A stretch of 38,383 nucleotides of DNA from an uncultured Bacilli bacterium (lineage in GTDB: Bacteria; Bacillota_I; Bacilli_A; RF39; UBA660). The notes under the pieces were generated by a model. That model was not told where the DNA came from. It ran no database searches and saw only the letters and a list, made by a program, of their open reading frames with translations. The stretch covers positions 1-38,383 of the forward strand of contig CANQGB010000011.1 of assembly GCA_947600335.1 (NCBI GenBank), read 5' to 3'. Shown in pieces: positions 123 through 34,468 of this stretch (positions are counted from its first letter, which is position 1; every line of letters begins with the position of its first letter). The translations under genes and the position numbers were made by a program.

Positions 123-330
123 TATTATTATCTTTAATACCATATTTACGAATAAACTTTTCAACATTTCCTGTTCTTTTTGCATTACCTTGTTGTCCGG
201 AATAGAAAGGATGGCATTCGCTACAAACTTCAACTTCAATGTTTTCTTTTGTTGAACGAGTTGTGAAAGATGCTCCACAAGCACATTTAACAGTAGTCTT
301 TTTCATTTCAGGATGAATATTGGCTTTCAT
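112..330 (-). CDS. rpmE: 50S ribosomal protein L31, zinc-binding type
   Basis: The 72-residue protein is a full-length L31 of the large ribosomal subunit. It keeps the zinc-ligand cysteines (KCACG near residues 15-19 and VCSECHPF near 35-42), so it is the zinc-containing RpmE form and not the zinc-free YtiA/RpmE2 paralog. The conserved HPFYSGQQ segment and a lysine-rich tail are visible. The ATG at 330 is preceded by AAAGGAGTG at good spacing. The gene has its own promoter (389-416), a leader hairpin (351-368) and a terminator that overlaps its stop codon, so it is a single-gene unit. In Bacillus the gene also lies in the wider neighbourhood of prfA, prmC and murA. Confidence 0.97.
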
Positions 331-350
331 TATGTAACACTCCTTTCGCC

Positions 351-368
351 ATACCTAATTTTAGGCAT
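351..368 (-). promoter_or_regulatory. Hairpin in the rpmE 5' leader
   Basis: Between the rpmE promoter and its ribosome binding site an 18-base near-perfect inverted repeat forms about 8 bp (CCTAA / TTAGG core, 2-base loop). It sits about 12 bases before the AAAGGAGTG Shine-Dalgarno sequence. Autoregulatory L31 leaders are known in Firmicutes, so this may be a compact one. That role is inference; the hairpin itself is seen. Confidence 0.4.
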
Positions 369-388
369 AGTAAATTTCTTTCTTTAGT

Positions 389-416
389 ATTATATCATAA
401 ATGTTTTATTTCGCAA
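389..416 (-). promoter_or_regulatory. Promoter of rpmE
   Basis: On the minus strand TTGCGA (plus 411-416) and TATAAT (plus 389-394) are 16 bases apart, and the -10 is extended by an upstream TG (TGATATAAT). It matches a housekeeping sigma-A promoter. Confidence 0.7.
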
Positions 417-426
417 TAGCAATTTT

Positions 427-1128
427 TTAAATAGTGCTGGAGGTCTCTTTAGTAAAAGATGATATAATTTTTTCAAAAATATATTTTTGCCCTTTATAAT
501 TTGGATAATAACTATTTTTTTGAATAAAGAATTTGGAATTGTTTCTAATGTCGGAGATGTCGATAAAAGTTATATTGTATTTTTGGCATAGTTTTTCTAA
601 TTCTTTATTAATTTTATTAATTTTATCTTTAGCAATTAAGTTGGATTCATATAGACTTATAACAAATATCTTATTTTTATTTAATTGAGTAATTTTTTGG
701 AAAAGTTCTTCATATTTATTCAAATAGCCTGTTATTTTAGATGAACCTAAAATTTTTTTGGAAGCATAACTATTTAATTCATCCATGCCTAGAGCAATTG
801 TAATAACATCAGATTTTTGAATGGCTTGTTTTATTTTAATTTTGTTTTCTAAAGTATTTATATTATCAGCTATTTTATTTAATAAACTGACTACTGTTTC
901 ATCGGGTTCACTAAAATTTTTGTAATAATTGGCAACATTATCTTTTTGAGACAAGTATTCACTTAGGTAATCATTATAATCGTAGCCTTCTATGTGATAT
1001 GGGGTCATACCAGTTGCTATTCCATCACCTAAACTTAAAAAATTTATATCATTATTGTCAACTTTTAAATAAATAATTATGGTCATGAATAAGCCAACTA
1101 ATAAAATGGCTCCGATTTTAAATTTCAT
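427..1128 (-). CDS. Membrane-anchored SGNH/GDSL-fold protein lacking catalytic residues
   Basis: The 233-residue protein has an N-terminal hydrophobic segment (about residues 5-21) that should anchor it outside the membrane, followed by an SGNH/GDSL hydrolase-like domain. Every recognisable catalytic block is altered. Block I reads LGDGIATG, with Gly36 where the nucleophilic serine should be. Block III reads GMDE (114-117) instead of GxND. The C-terminal DxxHPN box reads NSYYPN (205-210), with Asn for Asp and Tyr for His. It is therefore probably a non-catalytic binding or scaffold protein of the envelope; that is inference. It lies 37 bases downstream of murA, behind a terminator, and its ribosome binding site is an unusual G6 run (GGGGGGCTAAATATG). 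The family call rests on block I context and fold-like motif spacing. Confidence 0.7.
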   Translation of the reverse strand: MKFKIGAILLVGLFMTIIIYLKVDNNDINFLSLGDGIATGMTPYHIEGYDYNDYLSEYLSQKDNVANYYKNFSEPDETVVSLLNKIADNINTLENKIKIKQAIQKSDVITIALGMDELNSYASKKILGSSKITGYLNKYEELFQKITQLNKNKIFVISLYESNLIAKDKINKINKELEKLCQKYNITFIDISDIRNNSKFFIQKNSYYPNYKGQKYIFEKIISSFTKETSSTI

Positions 1129-1142
1129 ATTTAGCCCCCCAG

Positions 1143-1166
1143 AAAAAAATAGTAGTTCCCTACTAT
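1143..1166 (-). terminator. Intrinsic terminator of murA
   Basis: A 7-bp perfect stem (ATAGTAG / CTACTAT) with a GGAA loop is followed by a run of T on the minus strand. It begins within the murA stop codon. The SGNH-like gene downstream would need read-through or its own weak promoter. Confidence 0.8.
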
Positions 1167-2422
1167 TATATTTCTTCTAAATAGATTTTAGCACCAACAT
1201 TACTTAGTTTATTAACAATATTAGCGTAACCTCTTAATATATATTCGACATTTCTAATAACAGTTTTACCATCAGCAATAAGAGCAGCTAGAAATAAAGT
1301 AGCCCCGGCCCGTAAATCACTGGCTTCTACTTCAGTTCCAATTAAATTTGTCGGACCAGTTATTTTTTCAATATTGTCATTTATTTCAATATGACAGCCC
1401 ATTTTGTTTAAATAGGCAACATGGCCCATCCGTTTTTTATATATTGTTTCTTCAATTATGGATATACCTGCCGCTTGAGATAATAAAACAGTGATTGGTT
1501 GAGCTAAATCAGTAGGAAAACCGGGATACACTAAAGTAGTTATATTTGTTGGTTTGATATTATGAGCTTTACTAATCGTTATGCTATCTTCTTCTAATTT
1601 ATAAGGTATGTTCATTTCTTTAAGTTTAGTTAACAGAGATGAAATGTGTTGAGGAATAATATTTTCTATTTTTAAATTATCACCAATTAAAGCTCCAGCA
1701 ATGATATATGTGCCTGCTTCGATTCTATCCGGGATGACTTCGGAAAAACCATCATTTAATTTATCTACTCCTATTATGGTAATAGTGCTAGTACCTGCTC
1801 CAATGATTTTAGCTCCCATACTATTTAAAAAATTAACAACATTAATGATTTCTGGTTCCTTGGCAGCATTGTTTAAAACAGTTTTACCTTTAGCTTTAGT
1901 GGCTGCAAGAATAAGATTAATTGTCGCGCCAACACTAGGAAAATCTAAATAAATGTCGGCTCCTTTTAATTCTTGAGCATCAATAACATATTTGCCATCT
2001 TCTAGTATAGTAACAGAAGCCCCTAGAGATTCAAAACCTTTTAAATGAAAATCAATTTGGCGAGAACCAAAATTGCAACCACCAGGAAAGTAGATTTCGA
2101 CATGGTTAAATTTAGCTAAAAGGGCTCCCATAAAATAATATGAAGCTCTTAATTTTTGAGATAATTCTTGAGGAATAGTAACATTTTTTAAATTATCATT
2201 TTTTATAACTATTTTATTTTCTTCTTGAATACACTCGCTATTTAATAATTCTATTATGTCGATTAAAACATCTATATCCGTTATAGGGGGTATTTCATAT
2301 AAAGTAGCTGTATTTTCGGCTAAAATAGCTGCCGGTAATAAAGCAACAGCACTATTTTTAGCCCCATTTATTTTTATTGTTCCACTTAATGTTTTACCAC
2401 CATCAATGATTAATTGTTGCAT
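1166..2422 (-). CDS. murA: UDP-N-acetylglucosamine 1-carboxyvinyltransferase
   Basis: MurA transfers enolpyruvate from PEP to UDP-GlcNAc, the first committed cytoplasmic step of peptidoglycan synthesis. The 418-residue length is normal. Visible are the substrate-binding KINGAKNSA segment (Lys22, Asn23), the fosfomycin-target cysteine in GGCNFGSRQID (Cys116), the FPTDLAQP segment that holds the catalytic aspartate, and the DLRAGATL motif near the C-terminus. Cys116 predicts a fosfomycin-sensitive enzyme. The usual GxRPID motif has Gln in place of Pro. The ATG follows AAAGGATTG. The gene is 12 bases after mntP and ends in a terminator, so it is probably co-transcribed from the glycosyltransferase-spoIIR-mntP side. 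Bacilli often carry two MurA paralogs, and which one this is cannot be told here. Confidence 0.97.
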   Translation of the reverse strand: MQQLIIDGGKTLSGTIKINGAKNSAVALLPAAILAENTATLYEIPPITDIDVLIDIIELLNSECIQEENKIVIKNDNLKNVTIPQELSQKLRASYYFMGALLAKFNHVEIYFPGGCNFGSRQIDFHLKGFESLGASVTILEDGKYVIDAQELKGADIYLDFPSVGATINLILAATKAKGKTVLNNAAKEPEIINVVNFLNSMGAKIIGAGTSTITIIGVDKLNDGFSEVIPDRIEAGTYIIAGALIGDNLKIENIIPQHISSLLTKLKEMNIPYKLEEDSITISKAHNIKPTNITTLVYPGFPTDLAQPITVLLSQAAGISIIEETIYKKRMGHVAYLNKMGCHIEINDNIEKITGPTNLIGTEVEASDLRAGATLFLAALIADGKTVIRNVEYILRGYANIVNKLSNVGAKIYLEEI

Positions 2423-11245: not shown

Positions 11246-11295
11246 AAAGTCTAATTAGGATGTTACTTAGGTGAAACATCGTTAGTTTAGACTTT
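11246..11295. terminator. Bidirectional terminator between the PBP gene and noc
   Basis: A two-step inverted repeat: an outer 9-bp arm (AAAGTCTAA / TTAGACTTT) and an inner 6-bp arm (GATGTT / AACATC). A runs lie to the left and T runs to the right, so it can stop transcripts from both convergent genes. The noc stop codon (11294-11296) touches the outer arm. Confidence 0.8.
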
Positions 11296-12646
11296 ATTTT
11301 TTTATTTTGATTGTTATTTGATATGTATCTTCTAAATCAGCTTCTTCAAGTTCAAGGTCAATTCCCCGTTCTTTGATTTTTTCAATATTGTCGCGAATAT
11401 CATTTATAGTAGTTTTAAAATCAAGGCCGGCTTTTTCTTCTTGAATTTCTTCATATTTTGGGTCTAATTTTTCTATGCTGTCTAAAGGGTCAATTAAACC
11501 TTCTAAATTGGCAAAAGCAAAACTTTCTAATTTTGGTTCGGGAGATGACGTTTCCGGAGTTTCAGGAGTTGGTTTAACTGGTTCAGGTTGGTCATAAATA
11601 GGATTTAAATCGACAACTGTTTCTTTATTTTCGCTAGGTAGTTCGGGAGTATTATCAATAGGAAGTTCTTGAGGTTTAACATAAATATCTTCATCAAGGA
11701 AATCGATAGGATTTAAGTGAGTTGGTTCTTCAATAGGTTTTGGCTCTTCAATTGGTTGTTCTTTATTGAAAATATCAAGTGAGGGAGCGGTATTCATATT
11801 AGTTTGTTCATCTTCTAGGAAATTAAAGAATTTATTAGGTATTGCTTTTTTTTCTTCTTCCTCAGTAGGTTTTGGTTCTTCGATTGGTTGAGGTTCAGAA
11901 TTTTGAGGTTTCATGAATTCTTCAACATTATGAAGTTTGCGACTAACATTTATATCTTGGGCATTATTCATAATTTCAGTTAAATTAGGGTTAATATTAT
12001 TTATCAAAGGCATTCCACTTTCTTCATCATCATCAGGTTTATTATTTTTGAGTTTTTTTAGTTCCATATCTAATTGCCGAACAGGCATTCTTTCTTCAAT
12101 TATTCTTTTTAACCATTTACGTTGTTCTGCTTTATCTTCTAGACTTAATAAAGCTCGGGCATGACGTTCAGATATTTTTTCATTTAAAAGGGCATCTTGA
12201 ACTTCGTTATCAAGATTTAATAGCCGTAGTTTATTGGCAATAGTAGATTGCGATACACCCATTTTATCAGCTAATTGTTCTTGAGTTAGGTAGCCTCTTT
12301 CTAATAGTTTTTTATAGGACTTAGCTTCTTCAATGGAAGTTAGATTTCTTCTTTGAATATTTTCAACTAAAGCTACTTCGGCGCTTTTATTATCATCGAT
12401 ATCCGAAACAATAACTGGAACTTTGGTTAGTCCTGCTAAAGTAGAAGCTTTATATCTTCTTTCACCAGCAATTATTTCATATTTATCACCTAATGGCCGA
12501 ACAACTAGTGGCTGAATTATACCATGTTGTTTAATAGATTCAGCTAGTTCTTTGATACCATCTTCGTTGAATGTTAAACGTGGTTGAAATCTATTTGGTA
12601 TTATATCTTCAATAGGTATTTCTTGGATAGTTTGGTCCCTTTTCAT
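11294..12646 (-). CDS. noc: Noc-type nucleoid occlusion protein with large acidic/proline-rich insertion
   Basis: A 450-residue ParB-family CTPase. Domains: an N-terminal CTP-binding domain with NRFQPR (18-23) and GERRYKA (61-67); a helix-turn-helix DNA-binding domain (about 100-200); an extra segment (about 201-400) rich in Glu, Pro and Asp with repeated QPIEEPKP; and a C-terminal dimerisation piece ending ITIKIKK. Specificity positions indicate Noc and not ParB: Gln133, Lys139 and Arg161 correspond to Noc Gln173, Lys179 and Arg201 in Caulobacter ParB numbering; Asn144 replaces the usual Lys184. Position after rsmG is also the Noc slot in Bacillus. B. subtilis Noc has about 283 residues and an N-terminal membrane-binding amphipathic helix, which is absent here because the protein starts directly at the CTPase domain. 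Noc normally binds scattered sites and blocks Z-ring assembly over DNA. No parA is adjacent. Confidence 0.9.
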   Translation of the reverse strand: MKRDQTIQEIPIEDIIPNRFQPRLTFNEDGIKELAESIKQHGIIQPLVVRPLGDKYEIIAGERRYKASTLAGLTKVPVIVSDIDDNKSAEVALVENIQRRNLTSIEEAKSYKKLLERGYLTQEQLADKMGVSQSTIANKLRLLNLDNEVQDALLNEKISERHARALLSLEDKAEQRKWLKRIIEERMPVRQLDMELKKLKNNKPDDDEESGMPLINNINPNLTEIMNNAQDINVSRKLHNVEEFMKPQNSEPQPIEEPKPTEEEEKKAIPNKFFNFLEDEQTNMNTAPSLDIFNKEQPIEEPKPIEEPTHLNPIDFLDEDIYVKPQELPIDNTPELPSENKETVVDLNPIYDQPEPVKPTPETPETSSPEPKLESFAFANLEGLIDPLDSIEKLDPKYEEIQEEKAGLDFKTTINDIRDNIEKIKERGIDLELEEADLEDTYQITIKIKK

Positions 12647-12675
12647 TTTCTAATCAGCCCCTTTAGCCTATTATT

Positions 12676-12704
12676 AATATATCTTATATTAGAGTTTTTT
12701 TCAA
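12676..12704 (-). promoter_or_regulatory. Promoter for noc inside the end of rsmG
   Basis: On the minus strand TTGAAA (plus 12699-12704) and TATATT (plus 12676-12681) are exactly 17 bases apart, in the last codons of rsmG and just after them. It would give noc its own transcript besides the mnmE operon read-through. Confidence 0.55.
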
Positions 12705-16678: not shown

Positions 16679-16707
16679 AGTATATCACAAAATTATTTCC
16701 CGGGAAA
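16679..16707 (-). promoter_or_regulatory. Promoter of mnmE-mnmG-rsmG-noc
   Basis: The minus strand has TGATATACT (TATACT at plus 16679-16684, with extended TG). The -35 position, 17 bases upstream, is the TTTCCC half of the Noc-binding palindrome (plus 16702-16707). A protein bound there would overlap RNA polymerase. Confidence 0.6.
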
Positions 16708-16708
16708 T
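16695..16708. promoter_or_regulatory. Noc-binding site (NBS), perfect consensus
   Basis: ATTTCCCGGGAAAT, identical to the 14-base B. subtilis Noc consensus as I recall it, within an 18-base perfect palindrome (16693-16710). CCCGGG is conspicuous in DNA this AT-rich. It lies over the -35 region of the operon that encodes the Noc homolog. Confidence 0.85.
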
Positions 16709-16736
16709 AAAAATAGACTTTCGAATTTTGAAGACA

Positions 16737-18899: not shown

Positions 18900-19310
18900 A
18901 TAGGTAAGTCTTAGCATTTTGAATAATTAAAGTATGAACAATGAACAATTTTTCTTAATTTGGTGGCTAAAATCTTGCTTGAGATTTCACTAAAGTGGAT
19001 AAATATTATTTATTGTGAATTTAAAGTTTATAAGTTGTTGATAACTTTTTAACTATTTATGGGATATATTTTAATTTTTCACATTATAAACAATTTATTA
19101 AATTTTTTAAAAAGTTTATATGTGAATATTGTTTAAAGTTATTTTGTGAATAATGTTGATATTTTGATAAAATTCAGATAAAATAAGGCAAAAACATTGT
19201 GGATAAGATGTTGATATCCTGTGAATTAGTACTTTAGACTTTTATTTTTAAAATACTTGATATACAATGAAATTGGAAAGTGAGACACTTAGGGATGGGG
19301 TGAATGGATT
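18900..19310. other. oriC, part upstream of dnaA
   Basis: A 400-base non-coding AT-rich tract between divergent rpmH and dnaA. It holds one perfect DnaA box TGTGGATAA (19198-19206) and imperfect copies in the same orientation: AGTGGATAA (18994-19002), TGTTGATAA (19036-19044), TGTGAATAA (19145-19153), and weaker TGTGAAT forms at 19014, 19121 and 19220. Position and box cluster identify the replication origin. The rest of the tract is AT-rich without other clear elements. Confidence 0.85.
19258..19266 (+). promoter_or_regulatory. Extended -10 promoter of dnaA
   Basis: TGATATACA, a -10 with a TG extension, lies about 45 bases before dnaA. No clear -35 at standard spacing. Nearby DnaA boxes (19198, 19220) could give autoregulation, as in other bacteria. 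Confidence 0.5.
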
Positions 19311-20672
19311 ATGAAGGTAGATAGTATCTGGGGTAGTTTTTTAGATATTATAAAAGAAGAAATGAATCCTGCTTCTTATCATGCTTGGTTTGAAGGTTTA
19401 AAAGTTGTAAAAGCTGATAATGAAGTCATTACCATTCAAGTTCCCATGGAAATTCACAAAAAAATCTTAGGTGATAATTATTATTCATTAATTGAAGAAA
19501 CATTATTTAAATTAACTGGGGTAAATTATGAAATTAAGTTTGTTGTAGAAGAAGAAGTCGAAATGGCGGAAAGTATTGAAGAATTTAAGCCAGATGAAAA
19601 ATTTGTCCCGATTGAAAAAGAGGAATGGCAAAGTAATTTGAATCCTAATTTAAATTTTGATAACTTTATTGTGGGTAACTCAAATAAATTAGCCAAAGTA
19701 GCCTGTATGGCCGTCGCAGAACAACCAGGAAAGATTCATAATCCCTTATTTATTTATGGAAAAAGTGGTTTAGGTAAAACCCATTTGATGCACGCGATTG
19801 GAAATTTTATTGCTAATAATAGTAATAAAAAAGTGCTTTATACCACTAGCGATATGTTTATGAGTGATTATACGGGGATTGCTAGCTTGGAAAAAGGCCA
19901 AAGTTCGATAGATTATGCGAATAATTTTAAAAATAAGTACCGCAATGTGGATGTTTTAATTATCGATGATATTCAATATTTAGTCGGGGCTGAAAAAACT
20001 CAACAAGAATTTTTCCATACATTTAATTATTTGCACCAATCAAATAAGCAGATTATTATTAGTTCAGATAGTAGCCCCGATGATTTAAAACTTTTAGAAG
20101 AAAGACTTCGAAGTCGATTTATGTGGGGATTACCTGTGGATATCTATCCGCCTGACTTTGAATTACGATGTAAAATTATCAAGCAAAAAATTAAAGGAAC
20201 TAGCATAGAGAACAAGTTAGACCAAAATGTTATTGAATATATAGCTAATAGTTGTCAAAATGATGTAAGATTTTTGGAAGGGGCTTTAAATAGATTAATG
20301 GCTTATACAGCGATTATTGTTCCAGATAAAATTGATTTAGAGTTTTGCAACGAAGCTTTGAAAGATTTTGTTAATAAAAATATTTATTCAGATAATAACA
20401 TTCAAAATATTCAAATTGCGGTAGCTGATTATTATAAAATAACAGTTGAAGATTTAAAGGGGAAGAAAAGGAGTGCTAATATTGCTTATCCTCGCCAAAT
20501 TGCCATGTATTTATCAAGAATGTTAACAGATGAAACTTTTCCAAAAATTGGCATGGAATTTGGGGCTAGAGACCATTCAACCGTAATTCATGCTTGTGAT
20601 AAAATCGAAAATGATTTAAAAAGTAATAAAAAATTAGAGGATGATATAAAAAATATAAAAAATAAAATCTAA
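19311..20672 (+). CDS. dnaA: Chromosomal replication initiator protein DnaA
   Basis: A 453-residue AAA+ initiator. Domain I (1 to about 80) is followed by a very short domain II (about 83-108), the AAA+ domain with Walker A GKSGLGKT (150-157), Walker B VLIIDD and RLRSRF arginines, and domain IV with the DNA-binding signature GARDHSTVIHACDKI near the C-terminus. ATP-DnaA binds the boxes on both sides of this gene and opens the origin. The start follows a G-rich GGGATGGGGTG leader. All conserved catalytic elements are present. Confidence 0.98.
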   Translation: MKVDSIWGSFLDIIKEEMNPASYHAWFEGLKVVKADNEVITIQVPMEIHKKILGDNYYSLIEETLFKLTGVNYEIKFVVEEEVEMAESIEEFKPDEKFVPIEKEEWQSNLNPNLNFDNFIVGNSNKLAKVACMAVAEQPGKIHNPLFIYGKSGLGKTHLMHAIGNFIANNSNKKVLYTTSDMFMSDYTGIASLEKGQSSIDYANNFKNKYRNVDVLIIDDIQYLVGAEKTQQEFFHTFNYLHQSNKQIIISSDSSPDDLKLLEERLRSRFMWGLPVDIYPPDFELRCKIIKQKIKGTSIENKLDQNVIEYIANSCQNDVRFLEGALNRLMAYTAIIVPDKIDLEFCNEALKDFVNKNIYSDNNIQNIQIAVADYYKITVEDLKGKKRSANIAYPRQIAMYLSRMLTDETFPKIGMEFGARDHSTVIHACDKIENDLKSNKKLEDDIKNIKNKI

Positions 20673-28076: not shown

Positions 28077-28092
28077 TGTTTCACGTGAAACA
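28077..28092. promoter_or_regulatory. parS site 1
   Basis: TGTTTCACGTGAAACA, a perfect 16-base palindrome matching the Bacillus ParB/Spo0J consensus. It begins 11 bases after the gyrA stop. The downstream flank TTGTGCATAAGT resembles a DnaA box. Confidence 0.93.
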
Positions 28093-28314: not shown

Positions 28315-28330
28315 TGTTTCACGTGAAACA
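28315..28330. promoter_or_regulatory. parS site 2
   Basis: Perfect TGTTTCACGTGAAACA. The flank ATTGTGTATAAGT repeats the flank of site 1 with one base changed. Confidence 0.93.
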
Positions 28331-28477: not shown

Positions 28478-28493
28478 TGTTTCACGTGAAACA
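28478..28493. promoter_or_regulatory. parS site 3, within a 30-bp palindrome
   Basis: Perfect TGTTTCACGTGAAACA, with symmetry continuing 7 bases further on each side (28471-28500), making an uninterrupted 30-bp palindrome. Confidence 0.93.
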
Positions 28494-28702: not shown

Positions 28703-28718
28703 TGTTTCACGTGAAACA
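28703..28718. promoter_or_regulatory. parS site 4
   Basis: Perfect TGTTTCACGTGAAACA, 4 bases upstream of the -35 hexamer of the SRP RNA promoter, so ParB bound here might affect that transcript. Confidence 0.93.
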
Positions 28719-29318: not shown

Positions 29319-30998
29319 ATGGACAACGATTTTAAAGTACTTTATAGAAAATATCGCCCAAAGTCTTTTGATGAAATTGTAGGTCAAGAATATACGATAT
29401 CTATGCTAAAAAATGCTGTGATTGCTAACAAAATTTCGCATGCCTATATTTTTACTGGTCCAAGGGGTACGGGAAAGACTAGCACAGCGAAAATATTTGC
29501 TAAAACAATTAATTGTGAAAATCCAAAAGATGGTGTTCCATGTGAAACATGTGCGAGTTGCATGAATATTTCTAATAATGCCGATATTATTGAAATCGAT
29601 GCTGCTTCAAATAATGGAGTAGATGAAATAAGAGAAATTATTAATAATGTTAAGATTGCACCATCTTTTAGTAAATATAAGGTATATATTATTGATGAAG
29701 TTCACATGCTATCACAAAGTGCTTTTAATGCCTTGTTATTAACATTAGAAGAACCACCAAGTCATGTAGTTTTTATTTTAGCTACTACTAATATCGAGAG
29801 TGTTCCAATTACAATTTTATCTCGCTGTCAAAGATATGAGTTTAAGAAGGTAAATTTTGAAAAAATAGTGGCTCATTTGAAATATATTTGTGAAAGAGAG
29901 CAAATTAAAATTACAGATGAGGCTATTGAAGAAATAGCTTATTTATCAGAAGGTGGGTTACGTGATGCTTTAAGTATTTTAAATCAATTATCCACAAGTA
30001 ATGATGATATTTCTTTGGAGACTGTTGTTCAAGATTATGGCTCTATTTCGAATATTCAGATATCGAAAATAATTAATAATTTTTTAAATAATAATTTAGA
30101 AGAATTAGAAGAAATTTTTAATGATTTAAAAAATAGTTCTTTAGATTACAAAGTATTTATAAAAAAATTAATTGATGGACTTTATTTAAAAGCAATTGAT
30201 AGTAAAGAAATGAATGACGAACAAAAGTTCTCAAAAATTAAAAATACTATAATGAATTTAAATGATGTATTGAATAAAGCCAATATTAATGTTGACCCAT
30301 TTATATTAATTTTGATGTCTTTAGTGGAATTTATGGAAATAGCTGATAAAAGTTCTGAATCTTGGAAAGTAAAAGAAGAAAAAGTTGTTAATATTTTAGA
30401 AAATGTTGATGTTAAAGATGAAAAGATTATTGATAATTCAATTAATTTTGACAGTGTCGAAAAAGTTACTACTAATAAAGACACAACGGATGATGAAGAA
30501 GAATTCCTTGAATTCTTAAATAATTTAAAACAAGTAAGAATAAATAATTGTTTAGCAAAGGCTGATAAAAAGTCTTTAAACGAATTTAAAAAACAATGGA
30601 GCGAGTTTGTTTTAAAGAATGATAAAGCTAAAGATATTGGTTTTTTGATTATTGATTCAAATGTAGTGGCGGCTTCAGCAGATGTTATTCTATTTAATTT
30701 AATGCAACAAAGTATGGCCGAGTTATTTAATAAAAATATTGAAATGTTGGAAAAGAAGTTTAACAGTGCTTATAATTCAAAATATAAATTTATGTGCTTA
30801 TCTCAACAAGAGTGGACAAATGTTAAAAATGATTATATTATTAAATTGAAAAATAATTATGTTTATGACATTTTAGAGGAGCCAAATTTTAAGGAAAATG
30901 ATATAATAGTTGAAGAAATTGGCGAAAATGTCGTAAGTGATGACAATATTGATAGTTGTCTTGATATTTTTGATAAAAGTAAAGTAGAAATTAAATAA
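29319..30998 (+). CDS. dnaX: DNA polymerase III gamma/tau subunit
   Basis: A 559-residue clamp-loader ATPase. Walker A GPRGTGKT (47-54), a zinc module with Cys66, Cys75, Cys78 and Cys81, the DEVH Walker B (126-129) and the sensor-1 ATTNIESVP are visible. The C-terminal tau-like region beyond about residue 370 is acidic and weakly conserved. I did not see a clear A-run frameshift site that would make a separate gamma form. It begins the dnaX-ybaB-recR-bofA-holB string. Confidence 0.97.
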   Translation: MDNDFKVLYRKYRPKSFDEIVGQEYTISMLKNAVIANKISHAYIFTGPRGTGKTSTAKIFAKTINCENPKDGVPCETCASCMNISNNADIIEIDAASNNGVDEIREIINNVKIAPSFSKYKVYIIDEVHMLSQSAFNALLLTLEEPPSHVVFILATTNIESVPITILSRCQRYEFKKVNFEKIVAHLKYICEREQIKITDEAIEEIAYLSEGGLRDALSILNQLSTSNDDISLETVVQDYGSISNIQISKIINNFLNNNLEELEEIFNDLKNSSLDYKVFIKKLIDGLYLKAIDSKEMNDEQKFSKIKNTIMNLNDVLNKANINVDPFILILMSLVEFMEIADKSSESWKVKEEKVVNILENVDVKDEKIIDNSINFDSVEKVTTNKDTTDDEEEFLEFLNNLKQVRINNCLAKADKKSLNEFKKQWSEFVLKNDKAKDIGFLIIDSNVVAASADVILFNLMQQSMAELFNKNIEMLEKKFNSAYNSKYKFMCLSQQEWTNVKNDYIIKLKNNYVYDILEEPNFKENDIIVEEIGENVVSDDNIDSCLDIFDKSKVEIK

Positions 30999-32995: not shown

Positions 32996-33777
32996 TGCAT
33001 ATATATGGCGTTGTGTTTAATGATCATAAAAAGATTTCATATTTTAAGAGTGATAATTTAAAATTAGATGTTGATAATTATGTTATCGTCGATACTGACA
33101 AAGGTTGGCAATATGGTAAGATTATCGAAATTGTTGAGGAAGAGAAGAATAATGATTCTTTAAAAAATATTGTGCGTTTAGCGACCAAAAATGATTATAA
33201 TCAATATTTAAAAAATTTAAAAGATGCTGAGTTGGCTTTAAAAGAGGCTAAAAAGTTGGCAAAAGAATTGGATTTAAATATGCATTTTTTATCAGCAGCT
33301 TTTACTTTTGATAGAAAACAATTATTGTTTAATTTTATTGCTGATGAGAGAATAGATTTTCGAGAGTTAGCCAAAAAATTAGCCAATATATATAAAACGC
33401 GAATTGAGTTGCATCAAATTGGGGCTAGAGATAAGGCTTCCATGGTTGGTGGAATAGGCAGTTGTGGTAGAGAACAATGTTGTGCTTCTTTTTTAAAAAA
33501 TTTAGAGTCAGTTTCAATTAATATGGCTAAGAATCAAAATTTGGCTTTAAATCCCTCAAAAATAAATGGTAACTGTGGTCGTTTATTGTGTTGTTTAAAT
33601 TATGAAGATGACGTGTATACTAAGTTGAAAAAAGGGTTACCAAATGTTGGCCAAGTTATTACGAAAGAAAATGTTACTGGGAAAGTTGTTAGTGTTGATA
33701 TCTTAAAGAGAAAAGTAAAAGTTGATGCTAATAATGAAATAGTTGAAGTGGAATATCCTTATGAAAGTAATAAATGA
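32995..33777 (+). CDS. ricT: PSP1-domain protein RicT (YaaT)
   Basis: A 260-residue PSP1-domain protein with the characteristic cysteines (GSCGREQCCASF and NCGRLLCCLNYE). In B. subtilis RicT forms, with RicA and RicF, an Fe-S complex that directs RNase Y processing and is needed for competence and sporulation. It is at the same place after holB in Bacillus. I prefer the ATG at 32995 over the GTG at 32992, since the TGATG overlap with holB is the usual coupling. A roughly 25-residue coiled stretch (LKDAELALKEAKKLAKEL) lies near the middle. Confidence 0.93.
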   Translation: MHIYGVVFNDHKKISYFKSDNLKLDVDNYVIVDTDKGWQYGKIIEIVEEEKNNDSLKNIVRLATKNDYNQYLKNLKDAELALKEAKKLAKELDLNMHFLSAAFTFDRKQLLFNFIADERIDFRELAKKLANIYKTRIELHQIGARDKASMVGGIGSCGREQCCASFLKNLESVSINMAKNQNLALNPSKINGNCGRLLCCLNYEDDVYTKLKKGLPNVGQVITKENVTGKVVSVDILKRKVKVDANNEIVEVEYPYESNK

Positions 33778-34468
33778 TTTATTTGATTATGATTTTAAAA
33801 TTGTTCAAGATACCGATTATTTTAAATTTTCTTTAGATTCGTTGCTGTTAGCTGAATTTGTGGATAATGTGTATAACTTGATGAAAATTTTAGATGTATG
33901 TACAGGTAATGCCGCAATACCATTAGTTTTAGCTAGTAAATATGAAAATCAAATATATGGTTTTGAAATTCAAGAGAAAATCTATGACTTAGCTTTAGAA
34001 AGTATAAAGATAAATAAGTTAGAAGATAGAATAAAAGTATATAATGATGATATTGGTAATGTAAAAAAATATTTCCCGGGAAATATTTTTGATGTAGTTT
34101 TAGCTAATCCGCCTTATTTTAAATACAATCAAAGTTCAATAATAAATGAAAATGAGTGTAAAGCGATAGCTCGTCATGAAATTGCTTTAGATTTAGAAAA
34201 ATTATTTGAGAGTGTAAATTATATTATAAAAAATAAAGGTTGTTTTTATTTAGTGCATTTACCAAATAGGTTACAGGAAATTTTAGTTATGGCGGAGAAA
34301 TATAATTTTCGAGCTAAAAAAATTCAATTTGTTTATACAAATAAGAGGAAAGATGCTAAAATAGTTTTAGTTAAATTTGTAAAGAACGGGAACAATGATA
34401 TTAAAGTCAGTTCGCCGGTTTTTATTAATAATTATAAAAGTTATAAAAATATGTTTGGTGGTGATTAA
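33761..34468 (+). CDS. tRNA1(Val) (adenine37-N6)-methyltransferase-like protein
   Basis: A 235-residue SAM methyltransferase with DVCTGNAAIPLVLA (SAM loop) and VVLANPPYFK (NPPY, typical of N6-adenine or amide methylation), matching the YabB/TrmN6 family. In B. subtilis it follows ricT and yabA; here yabA, the DnaA regulator gene, is absent from the gap. I start at the ATG at 33761 (overlap with ricT); a TTG at 33743 is possible. A perfect Noc-binding palindrome is inside the gene at 34071. Confidence 0.88.
   Translation: MKVINDLFDYDFKIVQDTDYFKFSLDSLLLAEFVDNVYNLMKILDVCTGNAAIPLVLASKYENQIYGFEIQEKIYDLALESIKINKLEDRIKVYNDDIGNVKKYFPGNIFDVVLANPPYFKYNQSSIINENECKAIARHEIALDLEKLFESVNYIIKNKGCFYLVHLPNRLQEILVMAEKYNFRAKKIQFVYTNKRKDAKIVLVKFVKNGNNDIKVSSPVFINNYKSYKNMFGGD
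34071..34084. promoter_or_regulatory. Noc-binding site (NBS), perfect consensus, inside a gene
   Basis: ATTTCCCGGGAAAT inside the methyltransferase gene, within a 26-bp perfect palindrome (34065-34090). It is encoded as Tyr-Phe-Pro-Gly-Asn with the proline codon CCG, which looks uncommon in this AT-rich gene set and hints that the DNA site itself is selected. Confidence 0.8.

Follow-up and report, generated by a model that had tools for sequence, protein, structure and literature searches.

Noc is, in its textbook form, a copy of ParB that acquired both a new DNA site and a membrane hook and that guards the whole nucleoid, and in Bacillus subtilis its gene lies beside rsmG/gidB. The N-terminal amphipathic helix of the B. 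subtilis protein is described as weak, replaceable and predicted in all homologues examined in that work (PMC4331003; here and below, such identifiers stand for excerpts of the papers). For specificity toward the Noc-binding site (NBS), a lysine at one of two permissive positions is reported to be enough (PMC7383237). Staphylococcus aureus Noc restrains replication initiation, and species-specific contacts have been proposed for it (PMC5540599). During a block of early replication, Noc and Spo0J jointly keep Z rings from forming at midcell (PMC6852036), and the architecture of Noc is given as canonical in a survey of the ParB fold from 2025 (PMC12704722). Among the matches listed in a literature search, taken at the level of titles and opening abstracts, neither a Noc with a long linker nor NBS interleaved with parS was found.

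The window analysed here is a stretch of 38,383 nucleotides, positions 1 to 38,383 of the forward strand of contig CANQGB010000011.1 (assembly GCA_947600335.1), from an uncultured Bacilli bacterium (GTDB lineage Bacillota_I; Bacilli_A; RF39; UBA660). A preliminary description, made from the letters of this DNA, had pointed to a Noc homolog with a long acidic and proline-rich linker and had suggested a different design of nucleoid occlusion.

The noc gene and its place in the Noc branch

The noc gene occupies 11294..12646 on the reverse strand and encodes 450 residues from an ATG start; the coordinates, strand, length and motifs quoted in the preliminary description were exact. The adjoining gene is one that we take to be rsmG-like. 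The product consists of a ParB-type CTPase domain (residues 6-98, 12353..12631; PF02195, Noc structures 7ng0 and 7nfu), an HTH domain (residues 101-200, 12047..12346; Pfam ParB HTH) with the specificity residues Q133, K139, N144 and R161, a linker, and a Noc-type C-terminal domain (residues 407-450, 11297..11428), all on the reverse strand. The C-terminal domain was matched at E 3.5e-8, in a set of 80 sequences, by a profile made from the Nocs of other families (21 sequences), and the closest solved structures for the protein are the Nocs of Geobacillus and Bacillus.

As had been described, the protein starts directly at its CTPase domain, without a membrane helix. The Pfam ParB_N match starts at residue 6, and an N-terminal amphipathic helix of the B. 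subtilis type is absent. The codon 5' of the ATG is AAA and is preceded by an in-frame TAG, two codons upstream of the start, so that no upstream helix can be added to the window Noc and a membrane helix beyond the assumed start is ruled out. For comparison, 80 noc loci of the window's family were fetched from the 108 genomes with a listed long frame, and 79 of them yielded an ORF. An extra N-terminal helix was found in 0/79 of these family proteins, with the nearest ATG taken as the beginning of each, or another start where there was no ATG, and with several open frames extending further up. Nine of the 120 listed relatives were deposited with longer N-termini (MYINNRLKGLIS... and similar), which look like read-through of the ribosome-binding region. 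Some relatives have a short gap between rsmG and noc similar to that of the window (12647-12683); in them it has no in-frame stop and was annotated as an N-terminal extension, for example MYINNRLKGLIS.

The ORF is genuine and falls in the Noc branch of the ParB family. When the CTPase plus HTH region was used for a tree, rooted at its midpoint, 53 Noc-type and 16 ParB sequences separated without mixing, and the 28 sequences from the window's family formed one clade with support 1.0. The Q-K-x-R specificity residues are present in all 80 proteins compared (the window's and the 79 of its family). Gln133, Lys139 and Arg161 are thus as first reported; Asn144, which had been called a deviation and could be read as a loss of specificity, is neither, since QKNR, the state of the window protein, is the commonest one (40/80 family proteins and 14/25 Nocs examined from other families of the class) and lysine at either permissive position suffices. 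The ParA-binding motif LG[KR]G and the R-x-x-G specificity residues are both absent from the window Noc; the same genome encodes a separate ParA-ParB pair on another contig, and that ParB has the ParA-binding motif as well as R-x-x-G. With the NCBIfam model TIGR04285 (nucleoid_noc), the window protein scores 304.5 bits, under the curated cut-off of 315 bits, which was reached by none of 117 genomes of the order. A scan of named genomes returned five relatives, all from metagenome-assembled genomes.

Elsewhere in the class, Nocs take other forms. Several families have short Nocs of about 260 residues (L104, L108-L111 and L113-L121), some of which pass the NCBIfam cut-off; by eye, these seem to have no N-terminal amphipathic helix, unlike the homologues of PMC4331003, and they have no long linker. 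In another family, a 675-residue Noc (genome G141, ORF 280..2307 on the reverse strand) carries an acidic extension after its C-terminal domain that ends in NDGFWNLFK, and three perfect NBS lie around its gene. This extension is possibly an independent effector arm.

A conserved motif in a variable linker

The acidic and proline-rich linker spans residues 201-385 (11492..12046, reverse strand) and is mostly predicted to be disordered. The disorder prediction called for by the preliminary description was made with AlphaFold2 (input: the window protein and 57 of the 120 listed relatives); the model has a mean pLDDT of 68 and a pTM of 0.33, with pLDDT under 50 at residues 205-218, 249-268 and 285-380 and short helices at 222-228 and 275-283, the latter of low confidence. 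In an alignment of the same 58 sequences, mean majority identity is 0.90 over residues 1-200 (CTPase plus HTH), 0.68 over 205-247, 0.34 over 248-269, 0.92 over 270-284, 0.33 over 285-311, 0.64 over 312-320 and 0.31 over 321-380. Element A/B (residues 205-247, 11906..12034, reverse strand) reads IPLVNINPNxxxIxNNAxDIN..HDVxSMLxP in near relatives. Motif C, PNKFFNFLEDEQTNM (residues 270-284, 11795..11839, reverse strand), is likely a docking motif, and within it KFFNFL-E-D-E (272-280; K272-D279 encoded at 11833-11810) is conserved like the catalytic core among near relatives.

The six residues K272 to L277 are invariant in the 58 sequences, which indicates that residue identity is kept and not hydrophobicity alone. 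KFFNFL occurs in 120/120 listed near relatives, a count that, like those from the 58 aligned sequences, is biased upward because the search collects proteins sharing words with the query. At the DNA level, the pattern for KFFNFLED found a match at 0 or 1 mismatch in 12 of 13 same-genus genomes; the exception, G081, has neither a listed long noc frame nor a perfect NBS. The main match is noc in the window's own genome and in G113, and presumably in the other same-genus genomes. No second gene with the motif was seen with this pattern in the 13 genomes, each matching genome having one place; G113 has one extra 1-mismatch match, and some further 2-mismatch matches are roughly as frequent as those of the reversed control.

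Of the linear motifs that had been proposed to recruit a partner, FFNFLEDE fits the idea, being strongly conserved among relatives in a fast-changing, predicted-disordered linker; the others do not. QPIEEPKP, present twice in the window protein, is conserved in only 1/120 relatives, from the window's own cluster, and was rejected as a functional feature. The second motif, NPIDFLDED (residues 312-320, 11687..11713, reverse strand), had been thought similar to the first, and the likeness is superficial: FFNFLEDE is invariant or nearly so, while NPIDFLDED is kept only as [ED]xLD[DE], a loose pattern around which appears in 107/120 near relatives and 8/79 proteins of the wider family. A likeness of motif C to the N-terminus of SepF was also considered and set aside, the genome's own SepF being more lysine-rich there and different.

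In the wider family the motif loosens. KFFNFL itself is found in 8/79 noc genes drawn from it, and a looser [KRH]F[FIV] theme lies in the linker of 49/79 proteins, against a maximum of 14 in 200 shuffles, and is absent from the other 30. Its forms include GKFFSFIEEN, FKFFSPxEE, PPKFIDYGLEDED and RFIPD, sometimes two in one protein. Upstream, a theme like DIDxIKxNAxDIN, a looser version of the first part of element A/B, occurs in 44/79 proteins (shuffle maximum 6), and one like DIDxLL in 29/79 (shuffle maximum 7). The linker can also be far longer. Noc frames of 630-764 residues were found in G084, G046, G067 and G070 (L044, L070, L067 and L081), three of the four linkers being strongly Asn-rich; these four genomes have no perfect NBS, and the DNA site of their Noc may have drifted.

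Such a motif could serve the protein in ways other than docking a partner. The main rival to the docking reading is that it is the membrane-targeting helix itself, relocated from the N-terminus into the linker, and that the DNA is tied to the membrane directly and only at the origin. KFFNFL is the most membrane-seeking hexamer of the window linker, with an interfacial affinity of -2.54 kcal/mol on the Wimley-White scale, like three of the five Noc N-termini compared (MFNIFS -2.25, MFNLFT -2.49 and GLFDFL -2.14; the other two are MALFNR -0.52 and MNIFKN +0.16), and the window Noc's own N-terminus stands at +2.12. Its hydrophobic moment of 0.53 exceeds those of all five (0.21-0.48), its core resembles FNIFSRDD and the mutated residues K2, F5, R7, F8 and F9 of the B. 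subtilis helix (PMC4331003), and the helix at 275-283 in the AlphaFold2 model, though of low confidence, falls on the motif. The B. subtilis helix is itself reported as highly conserved, weak and replaceable by an unrelated one (PMC4331003). Against this rival, the exact residue identities are fixed, and versions in the wider family can hold proline or acidic residues and would bind a membrane poorly; where proline stands beside the theme (KFFSPEE, KFINPEE, RFIPD), it suits an extended docking peptide more than it does a membrane helix. Moreover, the most membrane-seeking hexamer of the linker coincides with the theme in only 45/120 and 36/79 relatives, and the short Nocs that seem by eye to have neither an N-terminal helix nor such a linker suggest that the helix can simply be lost. 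Fixed identities and proline-containing variants together favour a docking peptide for a protein, and we regard a relocated membrane anchor as less likely but, given the interfacial affinity of KFFNFL, as a serious rival. The earlier proposal that the motif replaces direct membrane binding holds for the missing N-terminal helix and is qualified for the motif, which may have a direct membrane role itself.

A second alternative would have the motif fold back on its own CTPase domain and regulate the clamp by autoinhibition, much as the helix of apo Geobacillus Noc is held in an autoinhibitory pose in the crystal (PMC8429893). Several contact residues named in that paper fall, by eye, in stretches shared with the window protein, so a docking surface on its own CTPase domain may exist. 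The model, with its low pTM, gives no confident placement of the motif, however, the spacer before the motif is strongly variable, and regulation alone would leave the protein without an effector. We consider autoinhibition improbable.

Noc-binding sites at the origin

Perfect sites were sought with the NBS pattern WWTTTCCCGGGAAAWW. The 1.23 Mb assembly holds exactly two, both TATTTCCCGGGAAATA and both in the window: one in the mnmE-jag intergenic region (16694..16709) and one inside a methyltransferase-like ORF, where it codes YFPGN (34070..34085). They flank, without interleaving, a gene that is presumably dnaA, named from sequence features and gene order and marking the origin region (19311..20672, forward strand; TTATCCACA boxes at 19198 and 20697 lie around it), together with four perfect parS (28077..28092, 28315..28330, 28478..28493 and 28703..28718). 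No other perfect parS occurs in the assembly, and one 1-mismatch parS lies at 29534. The methyltransferase-like ORF spans 33743-34468, and its YFPGN stretch uses the rarer codons CCC (27/245 Pro) and GGG (47/454 Gly; 21 window ORFs). Reading the palindrome at 16694 as a terminator offers no general explanation, the copy at 34070 being inside a gene and other copies lying between parS sites.

NBS are found in relatives as well. Between 1 and 10 perfect sites are present in 95/117 genomes of the order, with none for the reversed control in each. Perfect sites occur in 39 of 198 genomes sampled from the class, 23 of these genomes being from the window's family (23/26) and 16 from others (16/172). 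Within the order, sites occur in 93/108 genomes with a long noc frame, counted by eye among the matches listed, versus 2/9 others (Fisher 1e-4), a co-presence that is confounded, since an assembly that misses the origin contig would lose noc and NBS together. The few-contig assemblies G097 and G106 are among the 15 genomes that have noc but no perfect site, and several of the 15 have very long Asn-rich linkers.

The position of sites was mapped in 29 genomes, namely the window's own and 28 relatives selected from site-bearing genomes for their low contig number or their kinship, a choice that leaves out few-contig site-less genomes such as G097 and G106. In this set, 48 of 64 NBS lie on the noc contig, at a median distance of 17.2 kb and at most 32.2 kb away, and 63/64 lie on a contig with noc or a perfect parS; of the 16 off the noc contig, 15 are on contigs with a perfect parS and the remaining one (G009) is on neither. 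Exact TGTTTCACGTGAAACA is present in 19 of the 28 relatives. Forty-four NBS lie on contigs that also carry parS; the distance between the two is under 100 bp for 14 of these NBS and under 2 kb for 28, and the farthest is at 17.1 kb. The two kinds of site are interleaved in G008, G025, G048 and G089; in G008 the order is parS 35813, NBS 35873, parS 36021, NBS 36082, parS 36226, 36412 and 36537, and NBS 36597. Same-genus G113 repeats the window's order of noc, 4 kb, NBS, parS and NBS, and a third member of the genus, G098, has a single NBS 25.9 kb from noc.

These positions bear on whether the protein performs ordinary nucleoid-wide occlusion by way of numerous degenerate sites too divergent for a strict pattern. 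In S. aureus, ChIP placed Noc at 41 loci, which with a single exception are in the origin half (PMC5540599), and Noc-bearing genomes of other families are likewise poor in perfect sites, with the 16/172 above, which suggests that working sites can be degenerate. Yet the window's own assembly has no 1-mismatch site at all, and at up to 3 mismatches it has 143 matches, the reversed pattern 132. Relative G111, assembled as a single contig, has four sites at no more than 1 mismatch, all of them in 6.4 kb with parS among them (reversed control 0); four genomes of another family, likewise in single contigs, have 7, 9, 2 and 6 sites, which are dispersed (reversed controls 4, 1, 1 and 1), a contrast that is weak because those four have few near-perfect sites. 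Occlusion across the nucleoid is therefore unlikely, and the least probable of the readings weighed here. Perfect NBS being limited to the origin/parS region, loading would be expected mainly in that region, and the 'nucleoid occlusion' in the different design first suggested for this locus is weakened.

Discussion

The reading that we prefer, and to which we give about an even chance, is that of an origin-confined Noc clamp without an N-terminal helix, whose KFFNFL-EDE motif, in a linker predicted to be disordered, likely docks a partner onto the origin region. By homology with studied Nocs, NBS would be the loading sites from which the protein, closed into a CTP clamp, would spread within the origin region. 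The linker would be its effector: the KFFNFL-EDE motif would dock a putative partner protein, and the conserved upstream element (INPNxxxIxNNAxDIN / HDVxSML) may be part of the same docking module. As an outcome, the origin might be held or licensed, with division or replication initiation coupled to it. On a broader interpretation, which we rate somewhat short of an even chance, Noc would have become a second centromere protein in this family: NBS and parS, interleaved in some species, would form one composite centromere at the origin, occupied side by side by two orthogonal CTP clamps, of which ParB would serve segregation and Noc another task, carried out through a disordered arm whose KFF motifs recruit the partner.

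If this is true, Noc is built of three modules, a clamp, an address and an effector, that can be separated and exchanged, and a short conserved peptide offers a handle for finding the partner long suspected for Noc proteins. Measured against the textbook form, Noc in the window's bacterial family keeps the clamp and the site and lacks the hook; its perfect sites are found only near the origin, and an arm predicted to be disordered carries a fixed motif.

Among described systems, B. subtilis Noc shares with the window protein the CTPase, HTH and C-terminal domains, the Q-K-x-R residues, the NBS consensus and a gene position beside rsmG/gidB. It differs in having the N-terminal amphipathic helix, whereas the window Noc has no such helix and has a motif-bearing linker of about 180 residues, and in that its NBS are 'scattered around the chromosome' (PMC4331003), whereas perfect NBS in the window's family lie near the origin and parS. 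S. aureus Noc shares the NBS consensus, and the window protein, too, may plausibly act at the origin; the 41 loci of S. aureus Noc spread over the origin half (PMC5540599), in contrast to 0-10 perfect sites per genome in the 117 genomes of the order and to a distance of at most 32.2 kb from noc for perfect sites sharing its contig in the 29 mapped genomes. ParB/Spo0J with parS has a similar layout, with few sites clustered at the origin, and in G008, G025, G048 and G089 NBS and parS are interleaved; unlike ParB/Spo0J, the window Noc has neither the LG[KR]G ParA-binding motif nor R-x-x-G, and its genome encodes a ParA-ParB pair separately.
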